This document shows positions 16,958 to 23,352 of a DNA stretch of 64,000 nt, in pieces (within the stretch, counting starts at the first letter, position 1; each line of letters begins with the position of its first letter). The translations under genes were made by a program, and so were the position numbers. The notes beneath the pieces were generated by a model, which was not told the origin of the DNA, did not search any database, and saw only the letters and a list, made by a program, of their open reading frames with translations. This DNA is from Capsulimonas corticalis (lineage in GTDB: Bacteria > Armatimonadota > Armatimonadia > Armatimonadales > Capsulimonadaceae), in assembly GCF_003574315.2 (NCBI RefSeq), contig NZ_AP025739.1:5022001-5086000 (forward strand), written 5' to 3'.

Positions 16958-16996
16958 AAGACGCCCCCGGCCCCCACAAGGAGCCGGGGGCGTCTT
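16958..16996. terminator. Perfect 14-bp hairpin between mutT and ftcD
   Basis: AAGACGCCCCCGGC (16958-16971) pairs with GCCGGGGGCGTCTT (16983-16996) and overlaps the ftcD stop codon. No U-run on either side. Same style as the hairpins at 525 and 25027. Confidence 0.6.
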
Positions 16997-17864
16997 ACGT
17001 CGGCCAGTTCTCCCATAGGACCTGGCCGGGCTTTATTCTCGTTGCTGCGATCGCATCACGGATGAGACCGTACGCGGAAAAGCCCGGCAGCGCGCCAATC
17101 ACTTCACTCTCCACGGCTTTTGTTCCCAGTTCTTCGGCTCGCCTGGCAATATAAGAAAATAGGGCGTAGAGGGAGACGGACTCCGGGTGAACGACGTTGA
17201 TCGACACCTGGCTCAATCCGCGCGACTCCAGCGCGAGCCCCAGGGCGCGCACGCCCACAAAGCCCGCCGCGCCATCCGCGCGCAGCTCACGCGCGATGGT
17301 CTTCGCCGCTCGGATGTCTGGAGTGCTGAGATTGACGTTATAGGCGATCAATGGCCCGCGCGCGCCGACGACGACCGCGCCGGCCGTGGGGTGGGGCGAT
17401 GACGGCCCGTAATCGGGCGTGATCTCGGAGAATGCGCCGCGCCGCACGTCCGGCAGCGCCCGGCGCCCGGTCGATGCGAACTCATACAGGAAGACCGGAA
17501 GCTGGAGATCTTCGGCGATCTCCGCCCCCAGCTGAGTGGCGAGACGGGCGCATTCCTCCATGGTGATATTTTTGATTGGAACGAACGGCAGCACGTCGAT
17601 CGCGCCAAGCCTGGGGTGGACGCCGTGGTGCTCGGTCAGCGAAATATGCCGAACGGCGGCGCCGGCCGCCGCCTTCGCGGCGGCGGCGACCGGCGCGGGC
17701 GGGCCGACGAACGTGACGACCATCCGATTATGGTCCGTGTCGCTGCTCCAGTCCACAAGGCGCACGCCGGGCGTCGCCGAGACCGCGCCGACAATCGCCT
17801 GAACAACTTCCGGACGGCGGCCTTCGCTGAAGTTTGGGACGCACTGGATGATCGGCTCACTCAT
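16995..17864 (-). CDS. ftcD: Glutamate formimidoyltransferase
   Basis: A 289-aa transferase moving the formimino group of N-formimino-glutamate to tetrahydrofolate, the last step of one histidine degradation route. The N-terminus I-I-Q-C-V-P-N-F-S-E-G-R and the stretch H-H-G-V-H-P-R-L-G-A-I-D-V are family hallmarks; the His residues belong to the active site. Only the transferase domain is present, without the cyclodeaminase part of the mammalian enzyme. ATG 17864 overlaps the stop of the upstream gene (ATGA). No other hut genes lie in the window. Confidence 0.93.
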   Translation of the reverse strand: MSEPIIQCVPNFSEGRRPEVVQAIVGAVSATPGVRLVDWSSDTDHNRMVVTFVGPPAPVAAAAKAAAGAAVRHISLTEHHGVHPRLGAIDVLPFVPIKNITMEECARLATQLGAEIAEDLQLPVFLYEFASTGRRALPDVRRGAFSEITPDYGPSSPHPTAGAVVVGARGPLIAYNVNLSTPDIRAAKTIARELRADGAAGFVGVRALGLALESRGLSQVSINVVHPESVSLYALFSYIARRAEELGTKAVESEVIGALPGFSAYGLIRDAIAATRIKPGQVLWENWPT

Positions 17865-18838
17865 CGGCCGGCCCTCCGCTCCAGCGCGTCCTGCGCCGCG
17901 ATCCGGTACTCCCAAATCTCATCCTCCAATAAGCCTTTCCAACCGTCGTCCGTCCCGTCAATCGCCTCGCCAATACTCTGGAACAAGCTCTCCAGCCCGT
18001 TGGGCAGCTGCGTGATCTTGGGGGCGGCGACGTTTTCCGCAACCTGTGCGGCGTCCTGCATCGAGACTAAAATGGTGTCGAACAATTCGCTGGCGCTGAG
18101 CCATTTCAGATGCGCCTGCGCCACGGAAAGACCGTAGAAGTTCTTGGTCATATTTCGATAACGCCAGATATTGGGGAAACGCGTGAAGGGAATATCGCCG
18201 CGCCAGGAGAACGTTTGGGTGGCTATGACATCAATCCCCAGATCTCGGCAGAGCGGGATCAGCGCGGCTGCGGCGCGCCGATCGACATAGTTGCAGCGCA
18301 CGATGACGAAATCGGGGGCGAACGCTTTGCCGCGAATGGCGTCGGCCAGCGCGTCGTAATCGCCATAGCAGGTGGCGCCGATCGATGTGATGCTTTGCGC
18401 CTGCCGCGCCTCCTGCATCGCCCGCACAGCGCCGTCGAGCGCTTCGCCGTGGTGGACTTCGCGTCGAAAATCGTAAAGGGAGAAGAGGTCCAGCGTCTGT
18501 CTGCCCAGCATCTCGTGTTTGCGCGTGATGGCCCTTAGGATCGCTTCGGCGGCGCCCTCCGCGGTGTCCGGGCAGCGCGCGAGCGCATCGCCGTCGGTCG
18601 TGCTGAGAAGGTAGGGAGGCGTGTTTTCCAAAGGGGCAAGCGCGGCGGCCAGCGAGATCGCTTCGCGCTCGTGGGCCGCATGGAACAGCGTTATCCCGGC
18701 GCCCAGGGCGTCGGAGACGGCGCGGGAGGAAAGTTCGGCGTTCTCGATCTCCGTCGCTGGGTTTGATTGCAGGCGTCGTTCGGAAAAACTGATGGAGGCG
18801 GGAAGAATATTGGTCAGCTGCTGGATTCGGCTCGTCAT
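17861..18838 (-). CDS. Aldo/keto reductase-like protein lacking the catalytic tetrad
   Basis: About 325 aa from ATG 18838. The overall pattern is an aldo/keto-reductase TIM barrel: A-L-G-A-G-I-T-L-F near the front, a long helix with M-Q-E-A-R-Q-A-Q-S-I-T-S-I-G-A, and a late P-N-I-W-R-Y region. The catalytic residues are not where they should be: the usual D-T-A-x-x-Y-G is H-A-A-H-E-R-E, and no clear Lys or His partners are seen. It is probably non-redox or has changed function. It shares an ATGA junction with ftcD, so they form an operon. Function unknown. Confidence 0.6.
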   Translation of the reverse strand: MTSRIQQLTNILPASISFSERRLQSNPATEIENAELSSRAVSDALGAGITLFHAAHEREAISLAAALAPLENTPPYLLSTTDGDALARCPDTAEGAAEAILRAITRKHEMLGRQTLDLFSLYDFRREVHHGEALDGAVRAMQEARQAQSITSIGATCYGDYDALADAIRGKAFAPDFVIVRCNYVDRRAAAALIPLCRDLGIDVIATQTFSWRGDIPFTRFPNIWRYRNMTKNFYGLSVAQAHLKWLSASELFDTILVSMQDAAQVAENVAAPKITQLPNGLESLFQSIGEAIDGTDDGWKGLLEDEIWEYRIAAQDALERRAGR

Positions 18839-18892
18839 GTTGCCTATTGGTTCCACGAAACGGCCTTTAACTCCTGCCGCCGAGGAATCTGC

Positions 18893-18920
18893 TTGACAAA
18901 CCCATCGGAAATCATACAAG
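18893..18920 (+). promoter_or_regulatory. Promoter of the CHAD/Ppx operon
   Basis: TTGACA (18893-18898), 16-nt spacer, TACAAG (18915-18920). Predicted start near 18927, giving a leader of ~23 nt that contains the GGAG before TTG 18950. No Pho-box repeats are seen here. Confidence 0.6.
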
Positions 18921-18949
18921 ATAGTGATCACACGCCTGGAGAAAAACGA

Positions 18950-19432
18950 TTGAAATCACCCTACAATATCACAGCGGACGCGTCGTTCACGCAGTCGGCT
19001 GTCACGGCGCTCAAAACGCAGTTTGACGAGGTGATGAAGAATTTGCCGGGAACGCGCGCCGGCGATGACATCGAGGCGCTGCACGATATGCGCGTGGCGA
19101 CCCGCCGTCTGCGAGCCGCGATGTCGATCTTCGGGCCGGTCTTCCCGGAGAAGCAATTTCGTCCGCTGGAAAAAGAGGTCGCCCGGATCACCGACGCCCT
19201 CGGCGGCGTGCGCGACGCCGACGTGCAGATCGATTTCATGCAGAAGATGAGTGACAGCGTTCCTGAAGCGGAGAAAGTCGGCTTGCAGGCGTTTATGGAG
19301 CATTTGAACGCGCAGCGGGATCGCGATCGCGTGATCATGATCAAAGAACTCAATCGTCTCGAAAAGAGCAAGTTCTCCCGGGACTTCGAAGCGATGCTCG
19401 ATCAATTGCAGGAGGATGCGGACCATGGCTAA
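18950..19432 (+). CDS. CHAD domain, N-terminal half, as separate protein
   Basis: A 160-aa all-helical protein. Start TTG 18950 (GGAG 18938-18941); upstream in-frame codons precede the promoter. It carries the first CHAD signature, HDMRVATRRLR (45-55), and L-G-G-V-R-D-A-D-V (84-92). CHAD domains are normally ~280 residues made of two such four-helix halves and bind polyphosphate through these His/Arg/Lys residues. This protein ends after one half. The following gene encodes the other half and starts within its last codons (8-bp overlap with AGGAGG upstream). A split domain acting as a heterodimer is the simplest reading. Confidence 0.85.
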   Translation: MKSPYNITADASFTQSAVTALKTQFDEVMKNLPGTRAGDDIEALHDMRVATRRLRAAMSIFGPVFPEKQFRPLEKEVARITDALGGVRDADVQIDFMQKMSDSVPEAEKVGLQAFMEHLNAQRDRDRVIMIKELNRLEKSKFSRDFEAMLDQLQEDADHG

Positions 19433-19943
19433 AGCTCTGCCGATTTACGCGGTCAACGCGAGCGGCGCACTGGCCGAGAACGCGCCGCTGATCGTCCACA
19501 CGCGTCTGGAGGAAGTCTATCGATTTGCGCGCTACGCGCACGATGTCGAGCGCGTGGAGGAACTGCACAACATGCGGATCGCCGCCAAGCGTCTGCGCTA
19601 CACCATGGAAATCTTCGCCCCCTGTTTCCCCGACGCCGAGTTTACTAAGATCTACAATCAAGTCAAATCGGTCCAGGAGCGGATCGGCGACATTCACGAC
19701 TCGGATGTTCGTATTCCGCTATTGACTGCTTTCCGTGACGAGGCCGCGAAGGATCGTCCGGAATACAAGATCGGGCTCGACAATCTGATTGCCGTGGAAA
19801 CGGCGAAGCGCGAAGCCAACTATTTGGATTTCGTCCGTTACTGGGAGAAGCTGCAAAAACAGGGCTTCAAGCGGCAGTTTTTGCAGCTGCTGGTCCCGAC
19901 GGGCGGGAATGAACGAAAGGAAGACGCAGAAATTGCCAACTAA
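19425..19943 (+). CDS. CHAD domain, C-terminal half, as separate protein
   Basis: A 172-aa protein starting at ATG 19425, 9 nt after an AGGAGG. It begins with a short linker and contains the second-half CHAD signature HNMRIAAKRLRY (48-59), then Q-E-R-I-G-D-I-H-D-S-D-V (84-95). It therefore complements the preceding gene rather than duplicating it. The good ribosome-binding site argues against a sequencing frameshift in a single gene. Predicted role is polyphosphate binding together with the N-half. The 3' end overlaps the next gene by 35 bp. Confidence 0.85.
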   Translation: MAKALPIYAVNASGALAENAPLIVHTRLEEVYRFARYAHDVERVEELHNMRIAAKRLRYTMEIFAPCFPDAEFTKIYNQVKSVQERIGDIHDSDVRIPLLTAFRDEAAKDRPEYKIGLDNLIAVETAKREANYLDFVRYWEKLQKQGFKRQFLQLLVPTGGNERKEDAEIAN

Positions 19944-20775
19944 CAACACGCCGGCGCGACGCGTCAAAAAGACGGCGGATCAGGCCGCCATGGACCAGGA
20001 GATCGTCAAAGCAGTCGTCGAGGACGCCATCATGGGGATCGCCGCGGATGTCGCGGCTATCACTTCCTCGGACGCGGCTGCCGGATCGGAGCTTTTGATC
20101 GCCGAAACGCCGGAAGAAGAGGCGATCTTCGATATCGCCCGCGTGCCGTATCTTGGCCCATCCCGTCTCACCGCGCTGGCGGCGGCGGGAATCACAACGA
20201 TTGACGATCTGCACAACGCTCCCGTCGAGACCATTGCGGCCATCAAAGGCGTCGGACTCAAACAAGCGGCGTATATCAAGAACTGGGTCGGCGAGCAGCT
20301 GGGCGCCGCGAGCGCCGCCGAAACGGTCTCGCTCGTCGTGGAAATCACGGACGACCTGCCGCCCGCGCCTCCCGTCTTGGATTCTCTGCCGCCGAGCGCG
20401 CCGGAAGATCTCCATGCCAACGACTCGACGCCGTTCGATCTTGTGACCTCCACCGCCAACGAGACCGCCCAGGACGATATGGAGGCGATCGACGCGCTCA
20501 TCAACCGCTTGAAAGAAAGCGTGCCGAAGAAGCTGCGTGAGAAGTCCCTGAAGCGACAGATCGATAAGATCGTCGCGGTAATTTCGGCGGTCCCGGAAGA
20601 GCGCGATCATTTGAGCACGTATGGCAAAAAGAAGACCGCGCGGACTTTGGACCAGATCGTCAAGTTCCTTTCGTCCGCGGTCAAAGAAGAATTGCCGTCG
20701 AAAAAGAAACAAACCGAGTTCAGCGAAGAGCTCAAAGAGCTGCGCAAGCGGCTGGAAAAAGCGCTGGACGATTAA
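19909..20775 (+). CDS. Helix-hairpin-helix protein of CHAD operon
   Basis: About 288 aa from ATG 19909 inside the previous gene. Three parts: a polar Ala-rich N-terminus (1-70); a helix-hairpin-helix segment (~78-130, V-P-Y-L-G-P-S-R-L-T-A-L, then I-K-G-V-G-L-K-Q-A-A-Y-I), the type that binds DNA backbone or mediates protein contacts; a Pro-rich spacer; and a Lys/Glu-rich helical C-terminus (~205-288) that looks coiled. No catalytic motif. Its place between split-CHAD and phosphatase genes suggests an adaptor, possibly linking polyphosphate and nucleoid. That role is inference. Confidence 0.6.
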   Translation: MNERKTQKLPTNNTPARRVKKTADQAAMDQEIVKAVVEDAIMGIAADVAAITSSDAAAGSELLIAETPEEEAIFDIARVPYLGPSRLTALAAAGITTIDDLHNAPVETIAAIKGVGLKQAAYIKNWVGEQLGAASAAETVSLVVEITDDLPPAPPVLDSLPPSAPEDLHANDSTPFDLVTSTANETAQDDMEAIDALINRLKESVPKKLREKSLKRQIDKIVAVISAVPEERDHLSTYGKKKTARTLDQIVKFLSSAVKEELPSKKKQTEFSEELKELRKRLEKALDD

Positions 20776-20788
20776 GGCGGCAAGAACG

Positions 20789-21427
20789 TTGCGGATCGGT
20801 GTACTGAGCGATATCCATGGCGACCTCGCCGCGCTGTCGCGTGTGTGGGCGCAACTGGCGCGTGAGGGGCTGACAACGGGAATTGTGCTGAACGCCGGCG
20901 ACAATGTCGGATACGGCAAGTCGCCGGAAAAGTGCGTGCAATTTCTCCGGGATCATCCCAATATCGTCAATGTGCGCGGGAATTACGACAAGCACGTCGC
21001 CCTCTTCCCCGAGCGGCGTGAGAAGTATCAAAAGAAGTGGGGGCGCTTGCGGCCCGACAAGTACGCGACGCTTCGCGACAGCAGCGCGGCGATCTCGGAT
21101 CCGTCACGGGCATGGCTCGCCGCGCTTCCGGACTTCGAGATCGTCGACGCCGGCGTCGCCCAGATCTTCCTGACGCACTATTCGCCGGGTTCCAAAGAAG
21201 GGCTGGGGGATTGGACGCCGGAGTCGCGGCTGGCGGAACTGGCGCGCAATACGGAGGCGCGGATCGTGGTCTCCGGCCACACGCACTCCGCGTTCGCGGG
21301 GTATGGCGGCGGCACGCTGTTTCTCAATCCCGGGACCGTCGGCCGCAACTGGAACAAACGCGCCGAGTACGCGATTTTGACGCTGGACGACAACTTGAGC
21401 ACGCGGGTGGAGCTAAAAAGCATATGA
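20789..21427 (+). CDS. Calcineurin-like metallophosphoesterase
   Basis: A 212-aa phosphoesterase starting at TTG 20789 (M-R-I-G-V-L-S-D-I-H-G-D). Metal-binding blocks in order: SDIHGD (7-12), L-N-A-G-D-N-V-G-Y-G, V-R-G-N-Y-D-K-H, L-T-H-Y-S-P and V-S-G-H-T-H. GNYD stands where many relatives have GNHD or GNHE. The size fits the YfcE/PP-type single-domain family, acting on phosphodiesters or phosphomonoesters. It sits 13 nt after the HhH gene and overlaps ppx by ATGA, hence the same operon. Exact substrate unknown. Confidence 0.82.
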   Translation: MRIGVLSDIHGDLAALSRVWAQLAREGLTTGIVLNAGDNVGYGKSPEKCVQFLRDHPNIVNVRGNYDKHVALFPERREKYQKKWGRLRPDKYATLRDSSAAISDPSRAWLAALPDFEIVDAGVAQIFLTHYSPGSKEGLGDWTPESRLAELARNTEARIVVSGHTHSAFAGYGGGTLFLNPGTVGRNWNKRAEYAILTLDDNLSTRVELKSI

Positions 21428-22350
21428 GCACACGAATCGCAGCAATCGATGTCGGCACGAACTCCACGAAAGCAACCCTCGCCGACGCCGATCAGGGCAA
21501 AATCACCATCGTTCGTGAAGACTCGGAAGTGACGCGCCTTGGCGAGGGCGTGGACGCCTCCAAAACGCTGAAGCAAATCGCCATGGACCGCACGCTCGCC
21601 GCCATTCAGCGCTTCGCCGACGCCGCGCGCGCCGATGGCGCGACGCGTATTGTTGCGGCCGGCACAAGCGCCATGCGGGATGCGTCCAATGGCCCCGAGT
21701 TTATCGACCGCATTCATCGCGATGCCGGGGTCTCGATTGAGATCATTACTGGCGATCGTGAGGCGGAGCTTGCTTATGCGGCGATCCGGTCCGACGACAG
21801 CCTGGGGCTTGCCGCGGACCTGGCTCTTCTTGTCTTTGATATCGGCGGCGGCAGCAGTGAATTCATTGTGGGCGAGGGGAACTCAGTACGCGCCCATCGT
21901 AGTTTGAATATTGGAGCCGTCCGGCTGACGGAGCGTTTTTTGCACGGCGATCCCCCCACTGCCTCCGAGCTGGAGGAAGCGGCGAGCTATACGCGGGAGA
22001 TGCTGGAGCAGTTCGAGCTTGCGCCGCACCCGAAGGCGATCGCCGGCATCGGCGGCACGGCGATCAACGTCGCCGCCGTCGCGGCGCATGCGGCGGGCGC
22101 GGGCGACGCCGAGATTCACGGCCGTTCCGTCACGCTGGCGGATGTCAATGATGTGCTGGGTCTCTTCATAAGCCGTACTACCGAGGAGCGCAAACGCGTT
22201 CCAGGACTGGAAAGCGCGCGCGCCGATGTGATTATTGGCGGTGTTTTGATCCTCCAGCATTTGCTGCAGCGAGCGGGCGTTGACCGTTTTGTGGTGAGCA
22301 AGCGCGGCCTGCGCTACGGATTGATTGCGGAAGCCGCGCGCGAGCGGTGA
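21424..22350 (+). CDS. ppx: Ppx/GppA exopolyphosphatase family protein
   Basis: A 308-aa member of the ASKHA fold. Phosphate 1 loop A-I-D-V-G-T-N-S-T-K (7-16), phosphate 2 region F-D-I-G-G-G-S-S-E-F. It lacks the C-terminal HD-type extension of E. coli Ppx/GppA, like the short Ppx of many bacteria. It hydrolyses polyphosphate ends or pppGpp; the CHAD neighbours favour polyphosphate. Last gene of the five-gene operon, its ATG overlapping the phosphoesterase stop. Possibly the sigma factor downstream is also reached by read-through. Confidence 0.9.
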   Translation: MSTRIAAIDVGTNSTKATLADADQGKITIVREDSEVTRLGEGVDASKTLKQIAMDRTLAAIQRFADAARADGATRIVAAGTSAMRDASNGPEFIDRIHRDAGVSIEIITGDREAELAYAAIRSDDSLGLAADLALLVFDIGGGSSEFIVGEGNSVRAHRSLNIGAVRLTERFLHGDPPTASELEEAASYTREMLEQFELAPHPKAIAGIGGTAINVAAVAAHAAGAGDAEIHGRSVTLADVNDVLGLFISRTTEERKRVPGLESARADVIIGGVLILQHLLQRAGVDRFVVSKRGLRYGLIAEAARER

Positions 22351-22411: not shown

Positions 22412-22431
22412 TATAAGGGATAGTTTTTTTG

Positions 22432-23352
22432 ATGCAAGACCAAGATAGGGTTGATGTGACGAACGATACGCATTTGACCGATCGTCCTGCCGATACGAAT
22501 ACCGACGACGCTCCGCGCGCTGCGGATCGGGTTCCCCCGCGAATGGGGGAGATGACGCTGCAGACGCTATCGTTCCGTTACGCCCAGACACGAGACGAGG
22601 CGGCGCGCGAGACGCTGATCATGCATCACCAGAAGCTGGTGCATTATGTCGCCTCGCGTTTCATCGGCAGCGGCGAGACGCTCGAAGATTTGGTGCAGGT
22701 CGGCAATATCGGCCTGATCAATGCGCTGGACCGGTTCGACCCCTCCAAAGACGTCAAGTTTTCCACCTACGCCATGCCGACTATCGTCGGCGAAATCAAA
22801 CGCCACTTCCGGGATAAGACCTGGCAGGTCAAAGTGCCGCGCTGGCTCCAGGAGCTCTCGCTGAACGTGCGCAAGGCGCAGCAGCATCTCGTCGTGCGCC
22901 TGGGCCGCCCGCCCACGGTCAGCGAGATCGCCCAGGAAGTCGGCGCGACCGAGGACCGAACGCTGGAGGCGCTGGAGATCTGCCAGGTCGCGAGCACCAT
23001 CTCGCTGGACACCCGCCTGGACGCCCACGCCGGCGGCGACAGCGCGACCCTGATGGACATCGTCGGCCGCTGGGACGGCGGCCTCAGCGATATCGACACC
23101 TACTCCGACCTCCGCCACGCCCTGGAGTGCTTAGATCCGCGCGAACGCCAGGTTATCGAACTGCGCTTCTTCGAAGACCTTTCCCAGGTCAAGATCGCGC
23201 GCGAGCTGAACATCTCCCAAATGCACGTCTCGCGCCTCCAGCAGCGCGCCCTGGAGCGCCTGCGCTACATCCTGGCCGACGAAACCAAGCGTCCCAGCCG
23301 CCTGCGCCGCAAAGCCGCCGCCCGTTCGGAGCAGCCTCCGCTGCTGAATTAG
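22432..23352 (+). CDS. SigB/SigF-type RNA polymerase sigma factor
   Basis: About 306 aa from ATG 22432. A ~45-residue polar N-terminus replaces region 1. Region 2 (E-D-L-V-Q-V-G-N-I-G-L-I-N-A-L-D-R-F-D and F-S-T-Y-A-M-P-T-I-V-G-E-I-K-R-H) and K-V-P-R-W-L-Q-E-L are typical of the SigB/F/G group (alternative stress or development sigma factors). Region 3 (P-P-T-V-S-E-I-A) and region 4 (R-E-R-Q-V-I-E-L-R-F-F-E-D-L-S-Q) are complete. No anti-sigma or anti-anti-sigma gene is adjacent. The C-terminus adds a short basic tail. Confidence 0.92.
   Translation: MQDQDRVDVTNDTHLTDRPADTNTDDAPRAADRVPPRMGEMTLQTLSFRYAQTRDEAARETLIMHHQKLVHYVASRFIGSGETLEDLVQVGNIGLINALDRFDPSKDVKFSTYAMPTIVGEIKRHFRDKTWQVKVPRWLQELSLNVRKAQQHLVVRLGRPPTVSEIAQEVGATEDRTLEALEICQVASTISLDTRLDAHAGGDSATLMDIVGRWDGGLSDIDTYSDLRHALECLDPRERQVIELRFFEDLSQVKIARELNISQMHVSRLQQRALERLRYILADETKRPSRLRRKAAARSEQPPLLN

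Follow-up and report, generated by a model that had tools for sequence, protein, structure and literature searches.

The CHAD domain has been described as an internally pseudo-twofold symmetric module that binds polyphosphate specifically and, in the Chlorobium protein CtCHAD, polyphosphate is contacted by His253, Arg256, Arg260 and Arg296 of the first bundle and by Arg418 and Tyr419 of the second (PMC6537752). CHADs are usually recognised as two four-helix bundles carried on one chain about a pseudo-twofold axis, and their location next to an exopolyphosphatase (Ppx) gene is a known arrangement. Here we analyse 64,000 nucleotides of the Capsulimonas corticalis genome (contig NZ_AP025739.1, positions 5,022,001 to 5,086,000; hereafter the window), in which a CHAD also occurs beside Ppx. 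Unlike in that arrangement, it is encoded by two genes, ORF1 and ORF2, and accompanied by an extra HhH protein and a calcineurin-like metallophosphoesterase (MPE) of YfcE type; in some other split CHADs, Ppx is fused to the N half but not to the C half. When compared with CtCHAD (6qva/6qv7/3e0s), Ricinus RcCHAD (6qv5), PptA (6rn5) and E. coli ygiF (5a60), the pair shares two homologous halves, the same basic contact residues and, as predicted, the same overall fold, whereas its bundles are made as two polypeptides by overlapping genes and no CYTH/TTM domain is present. We regard the CHAD element of the window as a two-gene CHAD, very likely heterodimeric, which makes it a novel form of an established domain and not a novel type of system. 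No description of a split CHAD was found in the open-access literature that was searched, 'split' having 0 occurrences in the available part of PMC6537752, although a mention in Iyer and Aravind 2002 or in Tumlirsch and Jendrossek 2017 is possible.

Two complementary CHAD halves and their predicted fold

ORF1 and ORF2 match the Pfam CHAD family (PF05235, cut-off 25.6 bits) with 110.7 bits over profile positions 2-133 of 228 and 69.1 bits over positions 144-227, respectively, and no further CHAD match exists elsewhere in the 7.65-Mb single-contig genome. Since complementary halves above the cut-off recur in fixed order in 6/6 CHAD-bearing genomes of the family, their pairing goes beyond chance. 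All six CtCHAD contacts have equivalents in the window pair, four on ORF1 (His45, Arg48, Arg52 and Arg88, aligning with His253, Arg256, Arg260 and Arg296) and two on ORF2 (Arg58-Tyr59, aligning with Arg418-Tyr419). Across the 75 deduplicated split pairs that we collected, Arg48, Arg52 and Arg88 are each kept in 75/75 and His45 in 72/75, while Arg58 and Tyr59 are each found in 75/75, a conservation of the C-half contacts that outside Armatimonadota was partly imposed by the search motifs. The 'two-part binder' that had been proposed from the DNA letters fits both this residue conservation and the predicted fold described below.

The fold was modelled with ORF1 and ORF2 joined as one chain, using an alignment that held 19 natural one-gene CHADs and 15 halves. 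The resulting model (pLDDT 93.8, pTM 0.90) retrieved 6qva as its best Foldseek match (E 6.6e-10, TM 0.75/0.79), and the six chains at E <= 0.001 were all CHAD proteins. VIA-align against 6qva, a crystal structure of CHAD with polyphosphate, gave Z 28.1 and a root-mean-square deviation of 3.1 over 308 residues, whereas the first non-CHAD row stood at Z 10.2. As far as a predicted model can tell, ORF1 and ORF2 are thus compatible with the canonical CHAD fold when joined.

The explanation that we favour, and hold to be probable on the basis of sequence and modelling, is that ORF1 and ORF2 form an obligate, translationally coupled CHAD heterodimer which binds polyphosphate beside Ppx. Coupling would ensure that both proteins are produced together, the ribosome-binding site of ORF2 lying within ORF1 and the ORF1 stop within the ORF2 start; each half would fold as a four-helix bundle and the pair would assemble into the canonical pseudo-twofold CHAD. 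The basic groove for polyphosphate would then be located at the ORF1/ORF2 junction, so that neither half alone would hold the full site, and turnover of the bound polymer may be handled with the co-expressed Ppx (and the phosphoesterase). Several points weigh against this explanation, besides the bias in C-half contacts mentioned above. The model is that of a joined chain with one-gene CHADs in its alignment and so speaks for compatibility, being no proof that the separate chains dimerise; the halves are homologous, which makes homodimers conceivable; and some split CHADs have no nearby Ppx, as in Poribacteria (L083) and in an Armatimonadota order (f2, L039), where the pairs adjoin other genes such as those for a ROK kinase and an M23 peptidase.

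The N and C halves are indeed homologous over their whole length (profile comparison probability 99.4, E 1e-21, 159 columns) and, being paralogues, they indicate that the split follows an old internal duplication whose products are now two subunits. That paralogy, together with a CHAD pseudo-twofold axis that would permit it, is what speaks for separate N2 and C2 homodimers acting as two pseudo-symmetric polyphosphate binders with distinct roles. We nevertheless consider such homodimers improbable, as the halves are kept adjacent, in constant order and in overlapping or abutting genes, and match tables read by eye yielded no isolated halves in the CHAD-bearing genomes other than contig-edge or weak, broken extra matches, that is, none in a complete context. 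Moreover, the joint tree of N and C halves falls into two clean groups (support 97) that take in the halves of split and one-gene CHADs alike, and the halves of a one-chain CHAD must pair with each other.

Conservation of the split and nature of the junction

The split was found well beyond the window. Our Armatimonadota sample comprised 151 genomes (the window's own and 150 others), 71 of them with CHAD, and separate adjacent ORFs were verified in the DNA of 26 of these 71, including the six CHAD-bearing members of the window's own family, all split at the same place. The sole genome of the same genus (G001, 69% complete) gave no CHAD match. A scan of named genomes with a C-half profile, seeded with split C halves and therefore biased to them, retained 79 loci and placed split pairs in Ktedonobacteria, other Chloroflexota, Thermomicrobia, Thermoleophilia, other Actinomycetota, Poribacteria, a Planctomycetales metagenome-assembled genome (MAG) and others, the named strains including Ktedonobacter racemifer, Dictyobacter and Patulibacter. 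Unseeded Pfam scans covered 201 genomes from the phylum of K. racemifer, 108 of them with CHAD, and 198 from that of Patulibacter, 88 of them with CHAD. With counts read by eye from match tables and only G151, G154, G155 and G160 examined as loci too, adjacent complementary halves were present in 20/108 and 7/88 of these CHAD-bearing genomes, respectively; in 3 further genomes of the former phylum and 1 of the latter, a lone CHAD match is interrupted by an in-frame stop. Of the 17 genomes holding such a locus, 16 yielded no second, one-gene CHAD, whereas G160 has one.

The geometry of the junction is informative about how the two genes are expressed. In 70 of the 75 pairs the C gene starts no more than 30 nt before or 10 nt after the N stop, the most frequent positions being -8 and -4 nt (18 pairs each) and -14 nt (10 pairs), and the Met-Ala-Lys start of the C half is conserved. 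At least 4 bases of AGGAGG lie 3-12 nt upstream of the C start in 59/75 pairs compared with 12.5% at random positions, a figure to be read with the fact that start choice partly favoured ribosome-binding sites. The gap varies from -29 to +140 nt, and the C gene can be in any of the three frames relative to the N gene; both observations favour translational coupling over frameshifting.

These data bear on two ways in which the genes could be a single CHAD in disguise. One is that a single CHAD gene is broken at 19425, through a frameshift error in sequencing or assembly or by recent decay into a pseudogene. One-gene CHADs do exist in more distant relatives, and one Armatimonadota locus (G014, L042 6027-6879) has its CHAD in three pieces and looks damaged, probably by assembly frameshifts; the same split in all CHAD-bearing members of the family, the 75 pairs from several phyla, whose junctions cover all three relative frames and for the most part have a ribosome-binding site, and the contact residues kept in both halves leave this explanation with a next to negligible probability. 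A local frameshift at 19425 is ruled out by the relatives. The sequence-only reading had itself pointed to continuous CHADs in related genomes as what would expose such an error, and the search of relatives turned up the split instead, the one-gene CHADs of some more distant genomes being a different, conserved state. Its description of a CHAD on two genes with an 8-bp overlap and AGGAGG before the second is borne out by the ORF coordinates and the complementary Pfam halves, and the split that it took as genuine is so. The other way would be a programmed frameshift or readthrough that fuses both ORFs into one chain; many junctions have short overlaps, and a +1 shift at the overlap in the window would yield a continuous CHAD. 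However, ORF2 has its own ribosome-binding site, its Met-Ala-Lys start is conserved, and the variation of gap and frame means that no single recoding signal could serve all junctions. We therefore reject recoding as a general mechanism and deem it very improbable as an explanation for the window. In these phyla, a CHAD gene of half length should be annotated neither as a pseudogene nor as a frameshift.

The polyphosphate neighbourhood and the HhH protein

The two CHAD genes open a tight run of five genes on the + strand of the window (18950-22350), in the order ORF1, ORF2, HhH, MPE and Ppx (Table 1).

Table 1. Features of the CHAD operon, in window coordinates.
Feature	Position	Strand	Remarks
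ORF1, CHAD N-terminal half	18950..19432	+	160 aa, TTG start, GGAG 8 nt upstream
ORF2 ribosome-binding site AGGAGG	19410..19415	+	inside ORF1, spacing 9 nt to ATG
8-bp ORF1/ORF2 overlap ATGGCTAA	19425..19432	+	ORF1 stop embedded in ORF2 Met-Ala-Lys start
ORF2, CHAD C-terminal half	19425..19943	+	172 aa, ATG start
HhH protein	19909..20775	+	288 aa; gene overlaps ORF2 by 35 bp
Calcineurin-like metallophosphoesterase (MPE), YfcE family	20789..21427	+	212 aa, TTG start; 13 bp past HhH gene
Ppx/GppA family phosphatase, short form	21424..22350	+	308 aa, ATG start; 4-bp overlap with MPE

The last gene encodes a Ppx/GppA family protein (PF02541, 192.2 bits; cut-off 27) that aligns with the short-form exopolyphosphatase model TIGR03706 over 1-298 of 300 positions with 236.6 bits, under its cut-off of 307; judging from these matches, its activity is probably that of Ppx and not that of GppA. 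The MPE exceeds the cut-off of the YfcE phosphodiesterase model TIGR00040 (62.2 bits against 56.25), and the genome also carries a gene for PPK1, away from the CHAD operon, and a second Ppx-GppA gene. Of the 65 split loci flanked by 1.5 kb or more of sequence on each side, 43 have Ppx in the same orientation no more than 3.5 kb away, 8 have a phosphoesterase and 13 an HhH gene. Fusions point in the same direction: a single Ppx-CHAD-N protein with the C half as next gene was found in 21 loci, which come from Ktedonobacteria and from records whose labels make them relatives of that group (Pfam bears out the fusion in K. racemifer), and three methanogen loci (L137, L141 and L150; Pfam check on L137) encode a protein of ~680 aa that joins a one-chain CHAD to a YfcE-like phosphoesterase and is followed by a Ppx-like gene. 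In an Actinomycetes MAG (L100, 860-4534), histidine phosphatase, ppk1 and split CHAD genes form a tight run, the split pair coming directly after ppk1. The sequence-only reading had proposed a polyphosphate-handling complex of all five proteins, with HhH as a putative adaptor; the adjacent Ppx, the genomic PPK1 and the two kinds of fusion support a polyphosphate operon, whereas a single complex of all five proteins goes further than these data, HhH and MPE being dispensable within the family.

The HhH protein matches HhH_5 (PF14520) with 39.2 bits (cut-off 27) and belongs to a protein family in which both the HhH domain and the C-terminal region are conserved. Its predicted layout comprises an N-terminal helix, an (HhH)2 domain at about 73-137, a linker modelled with low confidence and, at 175-287, a C-terminal helical bundle modelled confidently. 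Fold neighbours of the HhH domain are the Rad51/RadA N-domain, NusA AR2 and UvrC, with weak Foldseek matches (E above 0.1) and Z of about 8-9, and the best Z for the C-terminal bundle, 11.1, is below the noise level stated by the tool for helical bundles. Profile comparison lent no support to the idea of this bundle as a third CHAD-like one, the probability being 0.2 for a match with the C half and 21.6 for one with the N half.

Full-length relatives of the HhH protein (E <= 1e-15) occur in 26 of the 151 Armatimonadota genomes, that of G001 being only the C-terminal part, and they are concentrated in CHAD-bearing genomes (25/71 versus 1/80 lacking CHAD, Fisher p 1.4e-8, with an E cut-off chosen after seeing the table and genomes that are related and not independent). 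In 21 of the 26 the gene adjoins CHAD, be it split or one-gene. None of 121 Chloroflexota genomes gave a full-length match to the HhH protein, and 7 show only partial matches to its HhH region (E cut-off 1e-12). Within the window's family, HhH is missing in one member (G003) and both HhH and MPE are missing from the operon of another (G005), with no HhH-protein match anywhere in these two genomes. These two split-CHAD genomes, and the generic nucleic-acid or protein-binding nature of the fold, would suit a nucleic-acid-binding passenger unrelated to the rest of the operon, a somewhat unlikely alternative in view of the co-occurrence with CHAD and the direct adjacency to both of its forms. The HhH protein may rather be an accessory that in Armatimonadota links the polyphosphate/CHAD assembly to nucleic acid. 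Comparison systems are the granule organisers PhaH of Caulobacter and the histone-like AlgP of Pseudomonas (PMC13052382), the former being a polyhydroxybutyrate (PHB) phasin said there to bind DNA via HhH. The likeness is that of an HhH domain in a storage-granule protein and one in a polyphosphate gene set; unlike PhaH and AlgP, the window operon concerns polyphosphate and not PHB, and the analogy is drawn from domain layout with no claim of homology. It is on this analogy that one might guess that the HhH protein tethers polyphosphate granules to DNA.

Several further features were observed around these genes. In L052 (8153-11407), two Ppx-family genes, one short with 319 aa and one long with 530 aa, lie within ~3 kb next to a split CHAD and HhH. 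In the window, a sigma-70 family factor (22429-23352, +; regions 2, 3 and 4 above Pfam cut-offs) is encoded ~80 bp past Ppx, and a phmmer search of 72 loci at E 1e-5 gave no match to it next to the CHAD of relatives. Just 5' of ORF1 (18893-18920, +), a perfect TTGACA is followed 16 nt on by a weak -10-like TACAAG, noticed by eye and unlisted in the consensus scan. Upstream of the operon, aldo/keto reductase and formiminotransferase genes are divergently oriented (16995-18931, -).

Split and one-gene states, and implications

A tree of concatenated halves from 129 pairs (75 split, 54 one-gene) requires at least 7 changes between the split and the one-gene state, 3 of them forced by well-supported branches, compared with 41.5 for shuffled labels. 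One-gene CHADs are nested among split ones in two families (f9 and f24), and the linker of one of them (L011) carries an in-frame ATG where split relatives start their C gene, with GGAG 5 nt before it as seen by eye, which is as expected of a recent fusion. The inner root of the paralogue tree has low support, fused rows taking most of the basal positions, and is compatible with either a split or a fused ancestral CHAD.

It is tempting to speculate further that the split CHAD is an openable clamp, whose jaws would close on polyphosphate across the central groove so that binding would need dimerisation, the chain then being handed to Ppx (fused to one jaw in Ktedonobacteria) while the HhH protein of Armatimonadota would tie the granule to the nucleoid. 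We take this for a rather doubtful elaboration of the heterodimer; if true, a split present across several phyla and repeatedly fused or split would amount to a natural experiment on the origin of an internally duplicated domain.

The original observation on the window is confirmed, and it reaches further than the sequence alone could show. The HhH protein and the YfcE-type phosphoesterase are new candidate polyphosphate-granule proteins, in phyla for which, to our knowledge, no polyphosphate handling has been studied. A CHAD that is naturally split lets the need for both halves in the polyphosphate site be tested directly, and it also allows testing subunit swaps or enzyme fusions, for which Ppx offers a natural precedent, as well as the interconversion of fused and split forms.

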